In this document: piece after piece, positions 10,430 to 24,206 of the stretch
How the letters are laid out: the number at the start of each line of letters is the position of its first letter
Numbering within the stretch: position 1 is the stretch's first letter
Notes under the pieces: generated by a model
Told to the model about the DNA's origin: nothing
Databases searched by the model: none
Seen by the model: the letters and a program-made list of their open reading frames with translations, nothing else
Program-made: the position numbers and the translations under genes
DNA from: Gammaproteobacteria bacterium
Lineage (GTDB): Bacteria; Pseudomonadota; Gammaproteobacteria; Steroidobacterales; Woeseiaceae
Length of the DNA stretch: 33,091 bases
Assembly: GCA_018677555.1 (NCBI GenBank)
Contig: JAHHOT010000218.1
Location: 1-33,091 of the forward strand
Direction: 5' to 3'

Positions 10430-10633
10430 GTCACCCGGAACGCCACGGCGTGTTATCAGTCGTGTCAAAGCTGCGGTTCGATGAATTCACGTCAGCCGCC
10501 TCGCTGGCGCCAAGTCGGGGCTCGGCAGGGTGGGGCCAGGACACAAGGTATCGTGGACTGCGTCACAGCCCGGGCGAACGGCCTCGACTAGGATTGCCGT
10601 TAGAAGAAGGATCTCCGCTCAGGTGCGCCAGGA

Positions 10634-11179
10634 ATGCAGACACCACAGCCTTGTCGGGCAAACTACTCCCCAGAGTTCGACATTCCGCGTTGGCGGCGAC
10701 GGTTCGCGGTGCTCGCCCTGCTTATCTGCACCGGCGTGTCGGCCAACGATGAGCTCAAGGTGCAGAATCCCCAGCAGATTGCGTACAACGTCGGTGGCAT
10801 GACGGACGCCGCAATCGAACTCGGCCTGGATGAGCAACGGGTATCCATGTGGCTCGCCCAATCGCTGCAGCACGCCGGCCTTGCGGCACGTGCGGCAGAC
10901 ACGGAACGCGACCAGGAGGTCGTGTTTCTCGACATCGTTGTGGAAGCCGGGTCGTACTACGCATCCGTCGGGTTCTGGCGCAATGCCAGTTACGATCTGC
11001 CTGACGGCACCGAGGCATCGAACCAGGTGATTGTCTGGCAGGAATATGCCATCGGCAGCCACAACGGCGACGTCGATCAGCTGCGCCATACGGTCAATCG
11101 TGTCATCGAGCGCTTCGTTTCCAGCTATGGCAACGCGAACGACCTCGACCTTTCGCAACAGGTCGCTGCAACCCGCTAG
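10634..11179 (+). CDS. Small exported protein of unknown function
   Basis: A 181-residue protein with an arginine-rich N-terminus (RWRRRF), a hydrophobic stretch VLALLICTGVSA and likely cleavage before NDELKV at about residue 38. The mature part reads as a mixed alpha/beta domain of about 140 residues: AYNVGGMTDAAIELGLDEQR, EVVFLDIVVEAGSYYASVGF, SNQVIVWQEYAIGSHNGDVD and a C-terminal helix LRHTVNRVIERFVSSYGNAN. I do not recognise the family. The ATG is directly preceded by AGGA, closer than usual, so the start is not secure, but the signal peptide supports a start in this area. It lies 190 bp upstream of the autotransporter gene on the same strand and is probably periplasmic. Confidence 0.6.
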   Translation: MQTPQPCRANYSPEFDIPRWRRRFAVLALLICTGVSANDELKVQNPQQIAYNVGGMTDAAIELGLDEQRVSMWLAQSLQHAGLAARAADTERDQEVVFLDIVVEAGSYYASVGFWRNASYDLPDGTEASNQVIVWQEYAIGSHNGDVDQLRHTVNRVIERFVSSYGNANDLDLSQQVAATR

Positions 11180-11368
11180 CCACAATCCTGCTCCAGGCTT
11201 CGATTCTGCGATACAGTGTTGCTGTCTCGCAACAAAAACGGGGTCTTTGCTTGTTGTCTGTAACCCGATGAACTAGTCTTGTAATAAGACTTTGCGCGGG
11301 CGTTTCACGCGGCTAAAAGCCGGTGTAAACAACGCAATACAAACAACAAAAATGCAAAGGACGACGCA

Positions 11369-12916
11369 ATGAATACCACGCAACGACGATCGCGAGCGCG
11401 ATCCTTTCTTGCACTGTCTGCATCAGTTTTTGCCTACGTGCTTTTATTGCCGACGCCGGCATCGGCTCAAGTTGCTATTGCAGATTTCATGACGCGTGTT
11501 GGCGGCGACACTCTACTAAATTCTAATGTAGGCGTGTCGGGATGGGCTGTTAATCGGATCTGTCTGGAGCTTGTTGAGCTGAGTTCGTCGGGTCCTCTGG
11601 ACCAGGCGCCGCAAGAACTCTTCAATCGTTGCGGCGAGCTGGTATTTACGTCCGATTCGCTCAACGGCGGCACGTTGCCGAACGCGTTGGGATATGAAAG
11701 GGACGACGATCTCCTTGCGGCGCTGCAACAGGTCAACGGGGAAGAAGCCCAGGCGGCCGCCAGCTTTTCCCAGAACGCGTCGTACGAACAGTTCTCGAAC
11801 ATCGCCGCGAGACTCGGCGCACTGCGTGGTACGACCGGCGCGTCCGTCACGTCCGTCGCCGCCAACGGGGCGGAGATGATGTTTGGCAGCGGCGGAGGCG
11901 CAGCAGCCGACTCCCCGTTCGGGCCGTGGGGCTGGTTTATTCGCGGATCCTATGTAACGGGCGATCGGGATCCCAGCAACCGGTCGAATTTCACGGGTGC
12001 TGAAAACGGCTTCGACTTCGACCAGTACGGCATCACCGTTGGCATCGATCGCTATTCCGGATCGACGGTCTGGGGATTTGCGCTCGGCTACACCGCCTAT
12101 GACATCGAGATGCAAACTACGCAGGTGGGTCGTCCGCTCGACAACCAGGCGGTGAACGGCGGCGATATCGAGACCGATACCATTTCCGGGACGTTCTATT
12201 TCGATTTCAACAGCGAGTCGGACGTCTACTTCTCGGTCCTCGCGGGTTACGGTAGCCAGACCCTGGACATGACGAGAAATTACATTTACGTATCGAATGC
12301 GGCAGGAACAGACGACCAGCTGCGTTTGTTGACGTCAGATCCCGACGGCGACTCGCTGGCGGGATCCATGACGCTCGGCAAGGTCTATCAACAGGGCGGC
12401 TGGGTATTCGAACCGCGTATCGGCCTTTCCTACGACCGCCTGAACGTGGATCGTTTCGTCGAGGCAGACAGTGGCAACCAGGAAGCCGGGACACCGACCG
12501 TCTCCGCGATGCAGCTTGCATTCGACAAGCAGACGATTGATTCATTCAGGGTCAATGTCGGTCTCCAGTTCAGCGGCAACATCAACACCGGCTTCGGCTC
12601 CGTGCGGCCCATGTTCTCGCTCGACTACTACCGGGAGTTCGAGGATGACCCGCGCAAGATCCGGGTCAAATATGCATTGGAGGACCAGCTTGCGGCTGAC
12701 AATCCGGGCGCCGCGTTCATGACCGGATTCGGCGGCTGCCTCTCCTGCTTCGAACTGGTATCGGATGCGCCGGATTCCGGCTTTTACGTCGTAGGGCTGG
12801 GCATCGCCGCGACCTACCGAAACGGCATCCAGGCATTTCTGATGTTCGAGAGCCTGATCGATTACGACAATCTGCGGTCGAATGCGCTAACTCTTGGATT
12901 ACGCGGACATTTTTGA
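11369..12916 (+). CDS. Autotransporter beta-barrel domain protein with short passenger
   Basis: 515 residues. The signal peptide ends at TPASA (cleavage before QVAIAD, residue 34). A short helical passenger (about 35-185) contains ICLELVE, two cysteines (in NRICLELV and NRCGELVF) and LLAALQQVNGEEAQAAASF. From about residue 185 (PFGPWGWFIRGSYVTGDRDP) the rest is a 12-stranded autotransporter barrel: GFDFDQYGITVGIDRYSGST, WGFALGYTAYDIEM, TISGTFYFDFN, YFSVLAGYGS, WVFEPRIGLSYDRL, FRVNVGLQFSG and the C-terminal LTLGLRGHF with terminal Phe. The passenger is far shorter than in adhesins or proteases, so the barrel itself or a small surface plug may be the working part. It precedes the caspase-domain gene by 146 bp on the same strand. 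Confidence 0.87.
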   Translation: MNTTQRRSRARSFLALSASVFAYVLLLPTPASAQVAIADFMTRVGGDTLLNSNVGVSGWAVNRICLELVELSSSGPLDQAPQELFNRCGELVFTSDSLNGGTLPNALGYERDDDLLAALQQVNGEEAQAAASFSQNASYEQFSNIAARLGALRGTTGASVTSVAANGAEMMFGSGGGAAADSPFGPWGWFIRGSYVTGDRDPSNRSNFTGAENGFDFDQYGITVGIDRYSGSTVWGFALGYTAYDIEMQTTQVGRPLDNQAVNGGDIETDTISGTFYFDFNSESDVYFSVLAGYGSQTLDMTRNYIYVSNAAGTDDQLRLLTSDPDGDSLAGSMTLGKVYQQGGWVFEPRIGLSYDRLNVDRFVEADSGNQEAGTPTVSAMQLAFDKQTIDSFRVNVGLQFSGNINTGFGSVRPMFSLDYYREFEDDPRKIRVKYALEDQLAADNPGAAFMTGFGGCLSCFELVSDAPDSGFYVVGLGIAATYRNGIQAFLMFESLIDYDNLRSNALTLGLRGHF

Positions 12917-13062
12917 GTCGCATTTAACAAAATACGGAATCCGCCGACGCGCTCCGGGCCGCTCACGCCAAGCGCTCGAACAAGGCCCCCGAGTGGCGTA
13001 AAATAGTGCGCTACAATAATAAGTGTCCTCTTTGGCAAATGCGGCCACGGGCAGGACGACGT

Positions 13063-16000
13063 ATGAGCGGTGAACGGCAAATCGGATTGGCGTTGGCGGC
13101 ATTCGCAATGTTGCTGCCTGATGCCGCTATGCCCGTGCCGGGCGATTCCGCATTTGACGCACCGCGCGGAATCGTCGATTGTCTTCTGCCCGGGCCGATC
13201 CGGCGCGTTGGCGGAAGCATCTACCAGATGCCGCAGCGCCCCGCGCGACTGACCGCGTCCGAGTGCCAGATCCGTGGCGGCGATTTCCTGCTTTACGACC
13301 GCGCCAACTACGAAACCTCCCTGAACCACTGGAAGTCGCTCGCCGAGAACGAAGCGGATGCCGACGCGATGTTGTACGTCGCCGAGATCTATGAGCAGGG
13401 CATTGGCCGTGATCCGGATTACGCAGCCGCTGCGGAGTGGTACCGCAAATCGGCGGATGCCGGCAATTCGACCGCCCTGATCAGCCTGGCGCACCTGTAC
13501 AAGACCGGCAAGGGTGTACCGCTGGACCTCGGCGCCGCCCAGTCACTGTATTCACAGGCATTCGGTTCGGACATTCCGATTCCGCTGGACCCGACTTCTG
13601 TTGCGGGTGCCGATCAGCGCCTCGAGACCTTGCTGGCAGAAGTCGACAAGGTGCGCCGGCAAAAGATCGCCGTCGAACTCGAGCTGGCGGCGGCCAACGA
13701 ACAACTCGACGATGCGCGTAACGCGCTCAATGTCGCACTGGCCGGGGACGACGAGAATGCCGGCATGATTGCCACGCTGCAGGATTCAATCTCGCGGCAG
13801 CAGTCGGAAATAGAGAACTACCAGAGAACGCTCGAATCCATGGCGGGCGAGAACGCGGACCTGGCGGATCTCCGCAGACAGCTGGAGGAACAAAAAGCGG
13901 AAGCATCGACGCTGCGCCAACGACTGGCGCGTGCCGAGGATGAAGTCGGGCGCAGCCGTGCGGCGCTCGAGCAGCAGCAGCGTTCGCTGCAGCAGACTCA
14001 GGAAGAATTCAACGAGCAACTGGCACAGGCGACCGTCGATGCCGCATTGCTGCAGACCATGAGTCGGGATCTCGAACAGCAGCGCGCAGAAGTCGAGTCA
14101 CTGGAGGAGGCACTCAGAAAGGCGGAACAGGACAAGCACCTGTACGAGGCCCTCGCCGACGATACGGCCACCAGGGAAGAGCGCATTGCTGCCTTGTCGG
14201 CCCGCATCACGTTGCTCGAACAGCAGGCAAACGCGGTTTCGGGCAACCTGGCGGACGAGAAAAGCAAACTGGCGTCGGCGCAGAGACGGCTTGACGAGCA
14301 GGTCGCAGCCGCCAAGGACGCCGCGGCGCTGTCCGCGGCGGAGATGGCCCAGCGTGACGAAGAAATAGCCCGCTTGCGCGGAATCGTCGCGCGCGCCGAA
14401 CAGGAGCGAGACCGTCACCGCGGCGACATCGATCACCTGAGCGAGCAAAGCGTGGAGCTGCAGCAACTTCGCACGGAACTCGAACGCGAACAGGCGCAGT
14501 CGAATCGATTGCAGCAACTCCTCACGGTATCGCAGGATCAGTACGCGAACTCGATGCGGCAACTGAACCAGGCGAACGCAGATCGTACAGATCTCGAAGA
14601 GCAGATTCAGGCACTACGAAACCAGGCCACGTCGGGAGATCAGGCCGTTCAGATCGCGCTCGAGCAACGCGAACGCGAACTTCGTTCAGCGCATGCCGGC
14701 ATCGAGGCACTGCAATCGCGGGTTGCTAAATCCGAAAACGAACTCAAACGCTACCAGCTTCAGATGGCGGACACCGCCGCGCGCCAGACAGAGGCCATCG
14801 AGAATTTGCGCGAAGCCGTTGCTGCCAGTCGCGTGGAACGGGCGCTGCTGGAAGAACGGCTTGCGTCGGCGAGCGCGCAACTGGCCGGCGCGGAGGTGGA
14901 TCTGAGTCTCGAACGGAAGCGCGTGGAAAACCTGCAGGACCAGCTTCGCGAAGCGAGAGCCGCGAATACCAGCAGCGCGGAGGCGCTGCAGCAGAAACAG
15001 GCGATGCTCGACGACCAGAGACGGCAACTTCAATCGCGCCAGCAGGAGATCGACCGGCTCAACGAACAAACGCAGCGCTACGTCGCGCAGATCGACGAAT
15101 TGAAGGAAATCGTCGAAGCCAGGAAAGTCGAATTCGTCGGTCCTCGGATCGTCATGCTGGAGCCGAGCGAAAACGTGCTCGCCGATGCAACTCTGCCCAC
15201 TCGCGGCGGGGCAGCGACGCGCGGTTTCGCTGTCATTCCGGCCTCGTACATCAACGAAACGCGAATGGTGCGCGGGCACGTCGAAGCGCCAGCTGGGCTT
15301 GCGAGACTGACGATCGATGGTTGGCAGGTCCCGTTCAACGAACACAACGCCTTCAGTTTGCCGCTGGAACTGGATACGGAAAACAAGCACATCAAGATTG
15401 TTGCGGTTGACCACAACGGCAAGAAAGACACCAAGGAGTTTCAGTATCGAATCGACGGTTCGATCGGACCTGCCGAAGCAACGATTGTCAACAAGCGGGA
15501 ACGCTTCGAAGAGGCGAGAAACAACGCGCTGGACCATTTGAAATACTACGCGCTGGTCATCGCCAACCAGGACTATGTCAATGAGTTCGTGCGCGACCTG
15601 GAGACGCCAATCTCCGACGCGGAAGCAATCGCCGCCGTGCTCAGGGATCGCTACAACTTCGAAGTGGACATTCTGTACAACGCCGACAAGGATACGATCG
15701 AAACGGAGCTGGAGCGGATTTTCTACATCGAGGAAAACGACGAAGATACGGACAACGACAAGGACGCTATCCTTATCTACTATGCAGGCCACGGCTTCGC
15801 ATCGGATTCACGCAACAACGATGCATATTTCTGGGCGCCGGTCGACGCCGAGTTCAACAGCCCGAGGACCTGGTACAAGACACGCGACCTGGAATCGTAC
15901 ATGCAGGTCAGCGCGACCAAGCAGATCATGGTTGTCGCCGACTCCTGCTTCGCTGGAAACGTGTTGAGTCGCGACGGCATCCAGGAAGACCATGCATCGC

Positions 16001-16407
16001 TGAACTCGCGCAACTGGCGCAAGTTCCTCGCCGAATACACCGAGAAAAAGAAATCGCGCTACGTGTTGACCTCCGGCGGTTTTGCCCCGGTACTCGACGG
16101 TGGCGGCGGCAATCACTCTGTCTTTGCCCGCGCATTTCTCAATGTGCTGATGGGGAACAACGAAATTATCTCGGCGTCGGGCGTGCACGAGCAGGTGGCC
16201 CCGGTGGTGATGGACCTGGCCGAGCGGCAGAATTTCGAGCAAACGCCATTCTTTGGCTACCTGCGTAGCGCGGGTCACGGATTCGGCAACTTCTACTTTC
16301 CGGCGCCGCGTTACGCCGCCGAGTCCGAGGAAATCATAAAAACCTCGTCGTTGATTCAATACCCGCTCAGCGGTACCGGAGTGAATACCGGGCATGCGTC
16401 CAGATAG
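13063..16407 (+). CDS. Exported caspase-fold (peptidase C14) protein with Sel1 repeats and long coiled coil
   Basis: 1114 residues from the ATG at 13063 (AGGA six nt upstream; an earlier in-frame ATG at 13006 has none). Order: signal peptide (IGLALAAFAMLLPDAAM, 1-25). Sel1-like repeats at about 95-170 (AMLYVAEIYEQGIGRDPDYA, TALISLAHLYKTGKGVPLDL). A nearly unbroken Gln/Glu/Arg/Ala coiled coil from about 186 to 687. A beta-sandwich at about 690-800 (TRMVRGHVEAPAGLARLTID). A caspase domain from Lys827 (KYYALVIANQDY) with the His910 motif YYAGHG and the Cys962 motif ADSCFAG, both catalytic residues intact. Acidic residues around 893-902 (IEENDEDTDNDKD) could bind Ca2+ (inference). Bacterial metacaspases cleave after Arg/Lys or Asp depending on type; the specificity here is not evident. 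The predicted location is periplasmic or surface. Confidence 0.88.
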   Translation: MSGERQIGLALAAFAMLLPDAAMPVPGDSAFDAPRGIVDCLLPGPIRRVGGSIYQMPQRPARLTASECQIRGGDFLLYDRANYETSLNHWKSLAENEADADAMLYVAEIYEQGIGRDPDYAAAAEWYRKSADAGNSTALISLAHLYKTGKGVPLDLGAAQSLYSQAFGSDIPIPLDPTSVAGADQRLETLLAEVDKVRRQKIAVELELAAANEQLDDARNALNVALAGDDENAGMIATLQDSISRQQSEIENYQRTLESMAGENADLADLRRQLEEQKAEASTLRQRLARAEDEVGRSRAALEQQQRSLQQTQEEFNEQLAQATVDAALLQTMSRDLEQQRAEVESLEEALRKAEQDKHLYEALADDTATREERIAALSARITLLEQQANAVSGNLADEKSKLASAQRRLDEQVAAAKDAAALSAAEMAQRDEEIARLRGIVARAEQERDRHRGDIDHLSEQSVELQQLRTELEREQAQSNRLQQLLTVSQDQYANSMRQLNQANADRTDLEEQIQALRNQATSGDQAVQIALEQRERELRSAHAGIEALQSRVAKSENELKRYQLQMADTAARQTEAIENLREAVAASRVERALLEERLASASAQLAGAEVDLSLERKRVENLQDQLREARAANTSSAEALQQKQAMLDDQRRQLQSRQQEIDRLNEQTQRYVAQIDELKEIVEARKVEFVGPRIVMLEPSENVLADATLPTRGGAATRGFAVIPASYINETRMVRGHVEAPAGLARLTIDGWQVPFNEHNAFSLPLELDTENKHIKIVAVDHNGKKDTKEFQYRIDGSIGPAEATIVNKRERFEEARNNALDHLKYYALVIANQDYVNEFVRDLETPISDAEAIAAVLRDRYNFEVDILYNADKDTIETELERIFYIEENDEDTDNDKDAILIYYAGHGFASDSRNNDAYFWAPVDAEFNSPRTWYKTRDLESYMQVSATKQIMVVADSCFAGNVLSRDGIQEDHASLNSRNWRKFLAEYTEKKKSRYVLTSGGFAPVLDGGGGNHSVFARAFLNVLMGNNEIISASGVHEQVAPVVMDLAERQNFEQTPFFGYLRSAGHGFGNFYFPAPRYAAESEEIIKTSSLIQYPLSGTGVNTGHASR

Positions 16408-16445
16408 GCAAGGCGTGACACCTGATCCCGGTTAGCCCGCTCAGC

Positions 16446-17255
16446 ATGATCCGCCGGGTCTTAATCCTTGCGATTTCGCTGATCGCATCCGCCTGCGCGC
16501 CCTATGGGCATTCCGTCATCGCCGAACGCCGCGGCCTGCAGCGCAGCGAGGTCACAGGGGACGTCTTTCGGCACCTCGTTTACCAGCGCTTCGATCCGTC
16601 GGGCAGCGCGCGACTACACGTATATATAGAAGGAGACGGCATCCCGTGGGTCGGCAACTTGCCCGGCGCGGACCCGACGCCGCGCAATGCGCTGGCTTTG
16701 CGCCTCGCGGCCGTGGATCCGCAGGACATCGCCTACGTTGGCAGGCCCTGCTATTTCCAGGTGCAGACGCCGGACAAGTGCACAGCGAATTACTGGACCT
16801 CGGACCGCTACGGCGAGGAAGTCATCCGGAGCATGGCAAGCGTTGTCGAGCAGGTCCGCGGGCCGCGCCACCGGGAGCTCGTCCTGATCGGACACAGCGG
16901 CGGCGGTGCGATTGCGGCGCTGCTGGAGTCCCGCGTTGACGGCGTCGTCGCGGTCGTCACCATTGCTGCGAATCTCGATATCGAGCGATGGGCCGCGCAT
17001 CATGATTACGATCCGCTGGATGGCTCGCTCAACCCGGTTGACGAGCCGACAGACCCGCGTATACCAAAGTATCAGCTTGTTGGCCGAGCCGACGACAACG
17101 TACCGCTGCAGACCGTCGTGCACTATGCCGACGATCGGCAGAACGTGGAACTGCTCGTCTACGATGGCTTCAACCACGCCTGTTGCTGGGAGAAAGAGTG
17201 GGCGAGCTTCCTGTCCCGGCTGGACCGGGCATTGGCAACGACCGAGCCATTCTGA
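16446..17255 (+). CDS. Putative lipoprotein alpha/beta hydrolase
   Basis: 269 residues. An N-terminal membrane stretch, LILAISLIASAC, ends in a near-lipobox with Cys17, so lipidation is plausible. The hydrolase core shows HVYIEGDGIPW (first strand and oxyanion region), the nucleophile elbow LIGHSGGGAIA (Ser151), an acid in LVGRADDNVP (Asp216 or Asp217) and the base in YDGFNHACCW (His244). Together these form a complete triad. Extra cysteines (GRPCYFQ, DKCTANYW, HACCW) suggest disulfides, which fits a periplasmic location. It begins 38 nt after the caspase gene and probably shares its transcript. It may be an esterase or lipase; the substrate is unknown. Confidence 0.8.
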   Translation: MIRRVLILAISLIASACAPYGHSVIAERRGLQRSEVTGDVFRHLVYQRFDPSGSARLHVYIEGDGIPWVGNLPGADPTPRNALALRLAAVDPQDIAYVGRPCYFQVQTPDKCTANYWTSDRYGEEVIRSMASVVEQVRGPRHRELVLIGHSGGGAIAALLESRVDGVVAVVTIAANLDIERWAAHHDYDPLDGSLNPVDEPTDPRIPKYQLVGRADDNVPLQTVVHYADDRQNVELLVYDGFNHACCWEKEWASFLSRLDRALATTEPF

Positions 17256-21576: not shown

Positions 21577-22173
21577 ATGGGGGTTCATGACCCCGGGAAC
21601 AGCGCAGTGGATATTGGCGTAAACCATCGATGCCTCGGTGAGGTCGATACGGCCGCATTGCGCGGCAGGATTCTCGAGCAGCCTGCGGAAGCATGGATAG
21701 AGCAGGCGATTCGCCAACAGACTTACGAGGTGCATCGGGACACGCAGTCCATCGTCATGCTGTTCTGCGACGAAGGCTGGCCCGAAGACGGTGAGCTGTA
21801 CAGGGAATCGGGCTACGAGCGGCTCGCGGACGTGGCGCTGCCGATTATCGACCACATCATCGACAGCTCGTACGAGACCGGCGGCATCGTGCTGCGCGCC
21901 ATGGCCGCCAAACTTGTCGCGGGCGGACGCATCCCGCCGCACAGGGACTCGCTCAGCTCATTTCATATCGGTCATCGCATCCACGTGCCGATAACCACCA
22001 ATCCGGGGGTGCGGTTTACCGTGGCCGGCAAGCCGTATCCTTTTGACGTTGGTTATGCGTATGAAATCAATAATCAGCAAAAGCACAGCGTGATGAATCT
22101 CGGCGACGAGGATCGGATTACCTTTATTTTCGATTACGTGCCGCCCGACAGGGTTCCCGGGGGGGCGCAATGA
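21577..22173 (+). CDS. Aspartyl/asparaginyl beta-hydroxylase-like 2-oxoglutarate oxygenase
   Basis: 198 residues with a double-stranded beta-helix core. RIPPHRDSLSSFHIGHRIHV contains His122 and Asp124. GVRFTVAGKPYPFDVGYAYE and INNQQKHSVMNLGDEDRITF contain the distal His170 and Arg180, which in this family bind iron and the 2-oxoglutarate carboxylate. The size and motif spacing fit the Asp_Arg_Hydrox family, which hydroxylates Asp/Asn side chains or amino acids. There is no signal peptide, so it acts in the cytosol. The ATG at 21577 is given; a GTG at 21607, with GGGA upstream, would make a protein 10 residues shorter. The stop overlaps the next start as ATGA (22170-22173), so it is tightly coupled to the sulfotransferase. 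Confidence 0.85.
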   Translation: MGVHDPGNSAVDIGVNHRCLGEVDTAALRGRILEQPAEAWIEQAIRQQTYEVHRDTQSIVMLFCDEGWPEDGELYRESGYERLADVALPIIDHIIDSSYETGGIVLRAMAAKLVAGGRIPPHRDSLSSFHIGHRIHVPITTNPGVRFTVAGKPYPFDVGYAYEINNQQKHSVMNLGDEDRITFIFDYVPPDRVPGGAQ

Positions 22174-24206
22174 GCACCGGACATAGCGCAGGTATGGCCG
22201 ACGACGGGCGGCGGATCAGCCTCGAGAAGGCGCTGGACTTTCTCAAGGGCGACCGGCCTTTGCGTACTGAAGAAGTGTGCCGCGACTACCTTGTCGAGCA
22301 CCCCGGCTGCACCGATCACCTGCGCCTTCTCGGACACGCGCTGATCAAACAGGGGCGTGCCGCAGAGGCGGAGCAACAGCTACGCCTGGCGCTGTCGATC
22401 GATCCCGAGTTTCCACAGCTGTACGAGGACCTGGGGAGCGCGCTGGCGCTGCAGTCGAAATTCGATGAAGCCATTCCGAATTTCGAACGCGCGCTGGAGT
22501 TGCAGCCGGCGCTGCCACTCGTCGAGCGAAAGCTCGGCCAGGCGCTTGTTGCGGCAGGCCGTGGCGACGAGGCCAGCGAAGTGTTGCGCGACTACGTCGA
22601 CAAGGACCCGAACCGTGCAGCGGTATTCAAAGGCATCGAATTACACCGGGCAGGCAAGCCGGATGAAGCGATGGCGGTATTTCGCGACGTATTGAAGTGC
22701 GATACGCAGAACGTCAATGCCATGCGGCAACTCGCCGTCGTTTACTGGCGCAGCGAGAAACGCAGCGATGACGCCGAAGCGATGCTACGCCAGGCGACAG
22801 GAATTGCCGACGACTTTCTTGGCGGCTGGCTTACACTGTCGGCGTTGCTGATGGATATGGGCAAGTACGTTGACGCGATCGCCACCTACAAGAAGGCGAC
22901 ACAGCTCGATCCCGACAATGCCGAAGCCTGGTCGGGGCTCGGGCATGCCAACGGACGCGCCATGTACCCGGAAGAGGCCACGAAAGCGTTCGAGCGGGCA
23001 CTGGAAATCAACGATTCGGAACCCAGCGTGTTGTCCTCCTATGCCTGGGAATTGAAAACGATCGGCGACCAGGAGGGTGCGTTAAAGGCCTACCGTCGGG
23101 CGGTCGAGCTGAAACCCAGCTTCGGCGCCGCCTACTGGAGCATGGCCAATCTCAAGATCTTCAAATTTAAAGACGCCGAGATCGACGAAATGCTGCGACA
23201 GGTCGAACGCGATGACCTGACCGAGGTCGAGGATATTCACTTTCGCTACGCGCTCGGCAAGGCAATGGAAGACAAGAAAGACTACGACCGTGCCTGGCAC
23301 TTCTATCACACCGGTGCGCAGCGGCAACGCATGACGGTCGAGCACGAGCCGATGGAATTCGAGCGCCGTCAGCAGGCCATTCGCGACGTGTTTACGCGCG
23401 AGCTGCTGGAAGCGCGATCCGGCGCGGGCTTCGATGCCCCGGATCCGATATTTATCGTCGGAATGCCGCGATCCGGCTCGACGCTCGTGGAGCAGATACT
23501 TGCGAGCCACAGCCAGGTGGAGGGCACGGCTGAACTGCCGATCATCGGCCGCATCACCGAGTCGATCGGCCGTTATCGCGCTGATGGCGTGCGTTACCCG
23601 GAAGCCGTCCGCGAGCTGCGCGACAAGGACCTGCGTGGCTACGGCCGCCAGTACATTAAAGAAGCACGGCGATACCGAAGCACGGATAAACCGCTATTCA
23701 CCGACAAGCTGCCGAACAACTTCCCAACGCTTGGTTTCGCCAGGCTGATCCTGCCGAATGCGAAGTTCATCAATGCGCGCCGGCACCCGTTCGATACCTG
23801 TCTTGGCAACTACAAGCAGCTGTTCGGCCGCGGTCAGAACTTTACCTACGATATGCTCGACCTGGCGCACTATTACCAGCAATACGTGGCGACAATGCAG
23901 CACTGGCATGACGTGATGCCCGGGCAGGTGCTGGACGTGCACTACGAGGAGACCGTCACCGATCTCGAAGGGCAGGTGCGGCGCATCCTCGACCACTGCG
24001 GATTGCCGTTCGAGGAAAGTTGCCTGCGCTATTACGAAACTGACCGCGCCGTCAAAACGGCGAGTTCCGAACAGGTGCGCCAGCCGATCTACACGAGCGC
24101 GCTCGGCAAGTGGCGTCGCTATGACAAGCACCTGGATGTGTGGAAGAAGCAGCTCGGAGACATTGTCGAGCAACTGCCGGAAGCATCGAGAAACGCCGGG
24201 CTTTAG
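22170..24206 (+). CDS. TPR-repeat sulfotransferase
   Basis: 678 residues in two parts. About 20-400 is a TPR solenoid with canonical repeats such as YEDLGSALALQSKFDEAIPN, KYVDAIATYKKATQLDPDNA and YPEEATKAFERALEINDSEP. From about 425 comes a PAPS-dependent sulfotransferase: the 5'-phosphosulfate loop is IFIVGMPRSGSTLVEQILAS (near 427-446), and the 3'-phosphate region is FINARRHPFDTCLGNYKQLF (near 532-551). Later marks are LDVHYEETVTDLEGQVRRIL and TASSEQVRQPIYTSALGKWR. The TPR part usually recruits a protein or peptide substrate, so this is likelier a protein or peptide sulfotransferase than a small-molecule one (inference). It is cytosolic and translationally coupled to the hydroxylase. It ends tail to tail with the next gene, the stops overlapping by 4 nt. 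Confidence 0.9.
   Translation: MSTGHSAGMADDGRRISLEKALDFLKGDRPLRTEEVCRDYLVEHPGCTDHLRLLGHALIKQGRAAEAEQQLRLALSIDPEFPQLYEDLGSALALQSKFDEAIPNFERALELQPALPLVERKLGQALVAAGRGDEASEVLRDYVDKDPNRAAVFKGIELHRAGKPDEAMAVFRDVLKCDTQNVNAMRQLAVVYWRSEKRSDDAEAMLRQATGIADDFLGGWLTLSALLMDMGKYVDAIATYKKATQLDPDNAEAWSGLGHANGRAMYPEEATKAFERALEINDSEPSVLSSYAWELKTIGDQEGALKAYRRAVELKPSFGAAYWSMANLKIFKFKDAEIDEMLRQVERDDLTEVEDIHFRYALGKAMEDKKDYDRAWHFYHTGAQRQRMTVEHEPMEFERRQQAIRDVFTRELLEARSGAGFDAPDPIFIVGMPRSGSTLVEQILASHSQVEGTAELPIIGRITESIGRYRADGVRYPEAVRELRDKDLRGYGRQYIKEARRYRSTDKPLFTDKLPNNFPTLGFARLILPNAKFINARRHPFDTCLGNYKQLFGRGQNFTYDMLDLAHYYQQYVATMQHWHDVMPGQVLDVHYEETVTDLEGQVRRILDHCGLPFEESCLRYYETDRAVKTASSEQVRQPIYTSALGKWRRYDKHLDVWKKQLGDIVEQLPEASRNAGL

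Follow-up and report, generated by a model that had tools for sequence, protein, structure and literature searches.

A widespread, apparently undescribed envelope system of caspase proteins and autotransporters, probably controlling surface proteins by cutting

The window analysed here, the whole 33,091-nucleotide stretch of contig JAHHOT010000218.1 (assembly GCA_018677555.1, a Gammaproteobacteria bacterium of the Woeseiaceae), carries a cluster of four plus-strand genes encoding a small exported protein, an autotransporter-type outer-membrane barrel, an exported protein with Sel1 repeats, a coiled coil, an immunoglobulin (Ig)-like domain and a caspase domain, and a lipoprotein alpha/beta-hydrolase. 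The caspase protein is inherited in near-perfect co-occurrence with the autotransporter subclass to which this barrel belongs, and both point to a widespread envelope system, apparently not described before, whose probable task is the control of surface proteins through cleavage. An earlier note, made from the sequence alone, had described the last three genes as an envelope caspase locus. That locus is real, with the three genes and the intact catalytic His-910 and Cys-962 at the positions given, but the strongest partner of the caspase is the barrel, which the note had named only as the preceding gene. Genomes, contigs and loci are referred to by the letters G, C and L, the window genome being G000 (82% complete). 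The features are as follows.

10634-11179, + strand: small exported protein, 181 amino acids (aa), without a Pfam family; fourth gene of the cluster
11369-12916, + strand: autotransporter-type outer-membrane barrel protein, 515 aa (PF03797 at residues 207-446, 1.6e-29; signal peptide at residues 1-33)
11519-11857, + strand: pre-barrel domain, barrel residues 51-163, with conserved Cys-65 and Cys-88
11810-11830, + strand: RLGALRG motif (Arg-148, Arg-153, Gly-154), candidate Arg cleavage site or recognition signature, from the alignment of 70 barrels
13063-16407, + strand: exported Sel1/coiled-coil/Ig-like/caspase protein, 1114 aa
13168-13356, + strand: N-terminal VDCxLPG...CxxRGG domain, residues 36-98, with invariant Cys-40 and Cys-68
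13309-13563, + strand: Sel1-repeat region, residues 83-167 (Pfam Sel1 at 100-135, 7.6e-10)
13609-15102, + strand: coiled-coil region, residues 183-680 (four helices in the model)
15229-15453, + strand: Ig-like beta domain, residues 723-797 (weak Glucodextran_B match and model)
15547-16248, + strand: caspase domain (Peptidase_C14, PF00656), residues 829-1062 (9e-15)
15616-15618, + strand: Asp-852, predicted S1-pocket residue (Asp in 83/83 relatives; role taken from the orthocaspase literature)
15790-15792, + strand: catalytic His-910 (His in 81/83 relatives)
15940-15948, + strand: Asp-960, Ser-961 and Cys-962, predicted S1-pocket Asp and catalytic Cys (Asp-Ser in 83/83 relatives, Cys in all readable ones)
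16446-17255, + strand: lipoprotein alpha/beta-hydrolase, 269 aa, starting 38 nucleotides past the caspase stop
16494-16496, + strand: hydrolase lipobox Cys-17 (IASAC17), invariant in the 32-sequence alignment
16896-16898, + strand: hydrolase nucleophile Ser-151 (GHSGGG), with Asp-216 (17091-17093) and His-244 (17175-17177), all three invariant

The signal peptides of the barrel and the caspase protein were called by eye. The start of the latter at ATG 13063 is preceded by an AGGA-type ribosome site on direct reading, while a longer GTG start at 13006 is without one. A reversed open reading frame at 10622-11185 was set aside in favour of the plus-strand gene at 10634-11179, and promoter and terminator scans gave results no better than shuffled sequence.

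With a signal peptide and a C-terminal PF03797 domain, the barrel protein has the make-up of a type Va autotransporter, and it is the only PF03797 match found in G000. The view of it as a barrel with a very short passenger was half right: only about 17 residues separate the signal peptide from the next domain, so there is no real secreted passenger, but residues 51-163 form a conserved pre-barrel domain. In an alignment of 70 barrels its two Cys columns are conserved at 95% and 97%, and within the RLxALRxG stretch the two Arg at 88% and 85% and the Gly at 85%. A strict RLxALR pattern before the barrel matched only about 18 of 63 barrels; the alignment showed both Arg columns to be conserved. 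Several genomes encode two to four pre-barrel autotransporters against one caspase protein (nearly all genomes have a single one), and the additional autotransporters carry long, adhesin-like passengers of Calx-beta and Ig-like repeats. One caspase protein with up to four autotransporters is the pattern of one enzyme with several clients. The passenger-less barrel is the only autotransporter detected in the window organism, and the release of large adhesins is therefore not expected there, unless an undetected client is encoded in the part that the assembly lacks; more likely is a role in switching or anchoring at the barrel. At a further locus (L039:3685-9831) a subtilase-VWA protein of 1182 aa is encoded between two barrel genes without long passengers, an arrangement suggestive of a split autotransporter.

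The tie between the two proteins was examined in an even sample of the class, 369 genomes in all, in which the caspase protein was counted by its N-terminal domain. It was present in 27 genomes (about 7% of the class sample), and the pre-barrel domain in 30, namely 26 of the 27 with the caspase protein and 4 of the 342 without (Fisher 1.3e-34); the matches in these four (5e-8 to 2.5e-6) are among the weakest. As a control, any PF03797 domain was found in 108 genomes, comprising all 27 with the caspase protein and 81 of the 342 others, and this far looser association indicates that the tie is to the pre-barrel subclass. It also exceeds physical linkage, since the pre-barrel autotransporter and caspase genes lie far apart or on different contigs in G107, G260 and G299.

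Gene neighbourhoods tell the same story at closer range. A search of 99 related genomes for relatives of the caspase protein gave full-length ones in the same gene order in G007 (64%) and G047 (57%), divergent ones in G002, G046, G024 and G027, and a broken one in G009. L036 and L037 preserve the order of all four genes, with proteins 55-64% identical and the change falling mainly on third codon positions; the small exported protein directly upstream of the barrel is kept in these two loci only (45% and 38% identity). The sole PF03797 proteins found in G000, G007, G047, G002 and G024 adjoin the caspase, and G046 has two, both at the locus, so that in these six genomes, the window and five relatives, a barrel always lies within about 7 kb of the caspase gene. 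Because the only PF03797 domains found in six genomes sit beside the caspase, the cluster is not a product of chance. A wider scan, over named genomes, gave more than 570 related stretches; the best 80 of these, picked by caspase similarity and not by neighbours, belong to Gamma-, Beta- and Alphaproteobacteria, Nitrospirota, Myxococcota and Desulfobacterota; cultured strains with the system include Methylomonas and Parahaliea. Across 97 distinct loci from several phyla, genes within 5 kb of the caspase gene encode a barrel in 59, a Ser/Thr kinase in 52, the hydrolase in 49, an FHA protein in 19 and a PP2C phosphatase in 13, with TssJ, TssK, TssL or TssM genes in a few; in four loci the kinase and caspase genes overlap by 4 nucleotides. 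A second sample of 28 loci, drawn by the N-terminal domain alone and partly overlapping with the first (some genomes are in both), gave kinase in 20, barrel in 16 and hydrolase in 15. The flanking genes, which the earlier note had grouped with the caspase from the window alone, are thus linked to it in other genomes as well. A plasmid search found no full-length member, only two-partner-secretion proteins of Azospirillum with a caspase.

An AlphaFold2 model of the caspase protein was built with 59 relatives, giving a predicted local distance difference test (pLDDT) score of about 90 for the caspase domain and the Sel1 region and lower values elsewhere (mean 74). The C-terminal domain adopts the caspase fold, and its best PDB matches in Foldseek are animal caspases (template-modelling score about 0.7, normalised by target). 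Having a p20 fold, a His-Cys dyad and two Asp residues at the S1-pocket positions, it belongs to the orthocaspases (C14), and dyad and pocket Asp residues are kept in more than 97% of members. Orthocaspases have two acidic pocket residues and cut after basic residues (PMC3501461, PMC6426788). Judged by motif position, Asp-852 and Asp-960 would be these residues, and the window caspase is predicted to cut after Arg or Lys. Five further caspase-domain genes with stronger PF00656 scores occur in the window genome (L001-L005, on C269, C40, C231, C17 and C159).

The coiled-coil call for the roughly 500-residue middle part holds, because residues 183-680 contain no Pro in 498 residues and have a hydrophobic period of 3.5 residues (z = 13.9). 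The envelope-spanning rod of some 70 nm that had been drawn from it does not. In the model the coil is split into helices 183-227, 230-367, 372-522 and 527-679, with breaks at 228-229, 368-371 and 523-526, and the stretch between the N-terminal and caspase domains spans 185 to 789 aa among relatives; a coil that is broken and of unconserved length leaves such a rod unsupported and unlikely. On the model, the pieces could instead fold as hairpins of roughly 20 nm.

Placement of the protein in the envelope is supported. The window protein has a signal peptide by inspection, and in 58 of 74 scored relatives a lipobox stands right before the N-terminal domain, with Asp following the lipobox Cys in one only. 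In E. coli, lipoproteins without Asp after the lipobox Cys are sorted to the outer membrane, and by this rule most relatives of the caspase protein are predicted to be outer-membrane lipoproteins. The window protein and two orthologues have no lipobox Cys and bear plain signal peptides. The 1114-aa protein contains only three Cys, the invariant pair Cys-40/Cys-68 and the catalytic Cys-962, and in this it fits a periplasmic protein.

The third partner also proved as described, with a full triad and a lipobox. Ser-151, Asp-216 and His-244 are invariant in 32 hydrolase homologues, Asp and His being assigned to the triad by conservation and order, not geometry, and the confident model (pLDDT 94) is that of an esterase-like alpha/beta-hydrolase; fold, triad and lipobox together make it an alpha/beta-hydrolase lipoprotein. 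A second copy of this family, 44% identical, lies at a contig edge of the window genome (L061:1-846, on C219) with no caspase in view.

In most kinases linked to the caspase, the kinase domain is followed by one predicted transmembrane helix and then by a C-terminal tail, the layout also described for PpkA (PMC12607579). In some loci, genes for TssJ, TssK, TssL, TssM, an FHA protein of the type VI secretion system (T6SS) kind and TagF-PP2C follow the caspase gene, and T6SS-type FHA proteins occur in 13 of the 27 caspase-family genomes against 34 of the 342 others (Fisher 2.5e-6). At L112:6558-20507 the order is barrel, kinase, caspase, FHA, TssJ, TssK, TssL and TssM, with the caspase gene at the place of tssW; the order in Acidovorax citrulli is ppkA-tssW-fha-tssJ (PMC12607579). 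Kinase, PP2C and FHA genes, the threonine-phosphorylation module of the T6SS, are present beside many relatives and absent at the window. Contig C33 of G000 carries a T6SS-type FHA gene and, about 16 kb away, a kinase gene, with no type VI genes around; this kinase bears a cyclic nucleotide (cNMP)-binding domain instead of the usual layout. TssC was not found in G000, of which only 82% is covered, nor in G007, G047, G002, G046 or G024, and for the window and the majority of its close relatives type VI secretion was therefore rejected as the general purpose of the system. A different architecture is seen at L213:2852-9268, where a two-partner-secretion exoprotein (TPS domain, FG-GAP and YDG repeats) ends in a caspase domain; a ShlB/FhaC transporter gene precedes it (L213:1127-2779), FHA, PP2C and kinase genes follow, and a TssM gene is nearby. 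Haemagglutinin-caspase proteins similar to it are encoded on Azospirillum megaplasmids. The L213 protein carries the same theme over to type Vb secretion.

That the caspase protein and the autotransporter are functional partners is, on this evidence, very likely in our judgement. From the parts we infer how binding, cleavage, control, trigger and biological purpose may fit together. The caspase protein would be held in the periplasm, as an outer-membrane-type lipoprotein in most relatives and as a soluble or barrel-bound protein in the window organism, and its N-terminal disulfide domain and Sel1 repeats would probably bind the barrel or the pre-barrel domain. The caspase domain would cut after Arg or Lys, most likely at RLxALR-G just before the barrel, upon which a surface part may be released or the barrel switched. 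The lipoprotein esterase may assist the caspase or be controlled by it, and many relatives would be connected to the cytoplasm, and sometimes to type VI secretion, by a membrane kinase whose tail is periplasmic, a PP2C phosphatase and FHA proteins. This whole chain including cleavage, an envelope Arg/Lys-specific orthocaspase dedicated to one autotransporter subclass and often under kinase control, is the best-supported reading, yet it is put forward tentatively, as a serious proposal that falls somewhat short of probable. Its boldest form is possible yet doubtful: one outer-membrane-anchored caspase would read the pre-barrel signature of two Cys and RLxALR-G on a set of autotransporters, cut after the Arg and thereby release or switch adhesin-like surface proteins, under a transmembrane Ser/Thr kinase to which type VI secretion, too, is subject in some bacteria.

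Several observations weigh against such an Arg-specific protease under kinase control. A long passenger that could be released is missing from the window barrel, the RLxALR motif may be there for folding or for packing of the pore instead of for cleavage, and no kinase gene stands beside the window cluster. The Fisher values overstate independence because close relatives share ancestry, though the co-occurrence effect appears too large for relatedness alone. In L040 and L041, from a sister genus, the catalytic His is replaced by Arg, and in L207 the barrel gene is followed by a version without coil and caspase; from these forms it follows that proteolysis is not always needed. The former two proteins (L040:416-3112 and L041:8398-11106) keep the Cys and are probable pseudo-caspases encoded beside hydrolase, kinase and FHA genes. 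The latter (L207:9316-10296, barrel gene immediately upstream) is a 327-aa lipoprotein with only the N-terminal domain, Sel1 repeats and Ig-like part, and a near-identical one is found in a second genome of the same genus (L208:8588-9571).

These forms favour the chief rival, in which the caspase protein is mainly a scaffold or accessory that folds, positions or anchors the barrel, as TssW does in anchoring and positioning the type VI machine, with proteolysis secondary or lost. The N-terminal domain, Sel1 repeats, coil and Ig-like part would then be its means of binding both the barrel and partners in the cell envelope. The very variable coil length and the place of the L112 caspase gene between kinase and FHA genes point the same way, but a pure scaffold would have no need of the dyad and the two pocket Asp residues that nearly all members keep, and we regard this explanation as rather unlikely. 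Next comes an envelope sensor of a kinase-phosphatase-FHA pathway resembling TagQRST, in which contact or damage at the barrel would lead the caspase to cut the periplasmic tail of the kinase and so turn it on, the window copy acting on other targets. The frequency of kinase, FHA, PP2C and Tss genes near the caspase gene, the enrichment of T6SS-type FHA proteins, the FHA protein and Ser/Thr kinase on C33 and the neighbours of the L213 exoprotein all speak for it; yet across genomes the barrel subclass is tied far more closely to the caspase than FHA is, no type VI machine was detected in most close relatives, and the C33 kinase departs from the usual layout, which together make a sensor of this kind distinctly unlikely.

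A role in defence or programmed cell death, which the earlier note had linked to such proteases, would have the caspase triggered by phage or stress and the hydrolase act as a membrane-damaging effector. Orthocaspases are often discussed in cell death and the hydrolase gene is closely coupled to the caspase gene, but PADLOC has no family for the caspase (coil hits only), the barrel or the hydrolase, the EACC1-type caspase model of NCBIfam (NF047832) gives 58.6 bits against a cut-off of 140, no phage homologue was found, the neighbours are secretion and phospho-signalling genes, and neither export to the envelope nor co-inheritance with autotransporters fits well, so that we consider it very improbable. 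Equally improbable is that the three window genes are neighbours without a common function, left from a larger system: the cluster does stand without kinase, PP2C and FHA genes, but its order and third-position pattern of change in L036 and L037 and the intact catalytic residues speak against it.

Little is settled about what caspase relatives do in bacteria, and most proposals turn on death within the cell. A large, conserved, exported branch tied to a defined autotransporter subclass offers a concrete partner and a candidate cleavage site. If the proposed cleavage is true, a protease-client logic would be added to type V secretion and linked to kinase signalling and type VI secretion. Should the boldest form hold, no caspase in the outer envelope of bacteria would, as far as we know, have been given a function earlier.

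Elsewhere in the window, an aspartyl/asparaginyl beta-hydroxylase gene is directly followed by a TPR-sulfotransferase gene (21577-24206), a possible peptide- or protein-modifying pair.

The literature on exported caspases with type VI secretion, autotransporters, the periplasm and COG4249 contained no description of the tie, most subscription journals and preprints lying outside that coverage. The window family shares with orthocaspases and metacaspases (MEROPS C14; PMC3501461, PMC6426788) the C14 fold, His-Cys dyad and two acidic pocket residues, and differs in being a secreted protein or envelope lipoprotein with a CxLPG domain, a long coil, an Ig-like domain and a tie to an autotransporter subclass; a caspase survey lists Sel1 for 6% of its sequences, and signal peptides as a possibility, but no autotransporters (PMC3501461). 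The two-gene systems of EACC1-associated caspases (PMC7159879) also have a membrane-linked caspase in a conserved gene pair, whereas here the caspase domain is C-terminal and exported and scores below the cut-off of that family. TagQRST-PpkA-PppA-Fha and TssW of Acidovorax citrulli (PMC12607579) likewise wire envelope proteins to a transmembrane kinase, PP2C and FHA; here a protease and an autotransporter make up the envelope parts, the window organism gave no TssC match, and the likeness to TssW lies in gene position only, at L112. With type Va autotransporters (PF03797) the barrel protein has in common the signal peptide and C-terminal barrel, and several relatives the long Calx-beta/Ig passengers, while the two-Cys pre-barrel domain with RLxALRxG, the associated protease gene and, in the window, the want of a real passenger set it apart. 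In the LapD/LapG/LapA system, a signal-controlled periplasmic cysteine protease acts on the part that anchors a large adhesin at the surface. The system described here would resemble it in outline, by analogy only, with a caspase in place of the bacterial transglutaminase-like cysteine protease fold of LapG, another secretion route, and a kinase instead of a c-di-GMP receptor. Each part belongs to a known family, and the system that they make up has a fair chance of being new.

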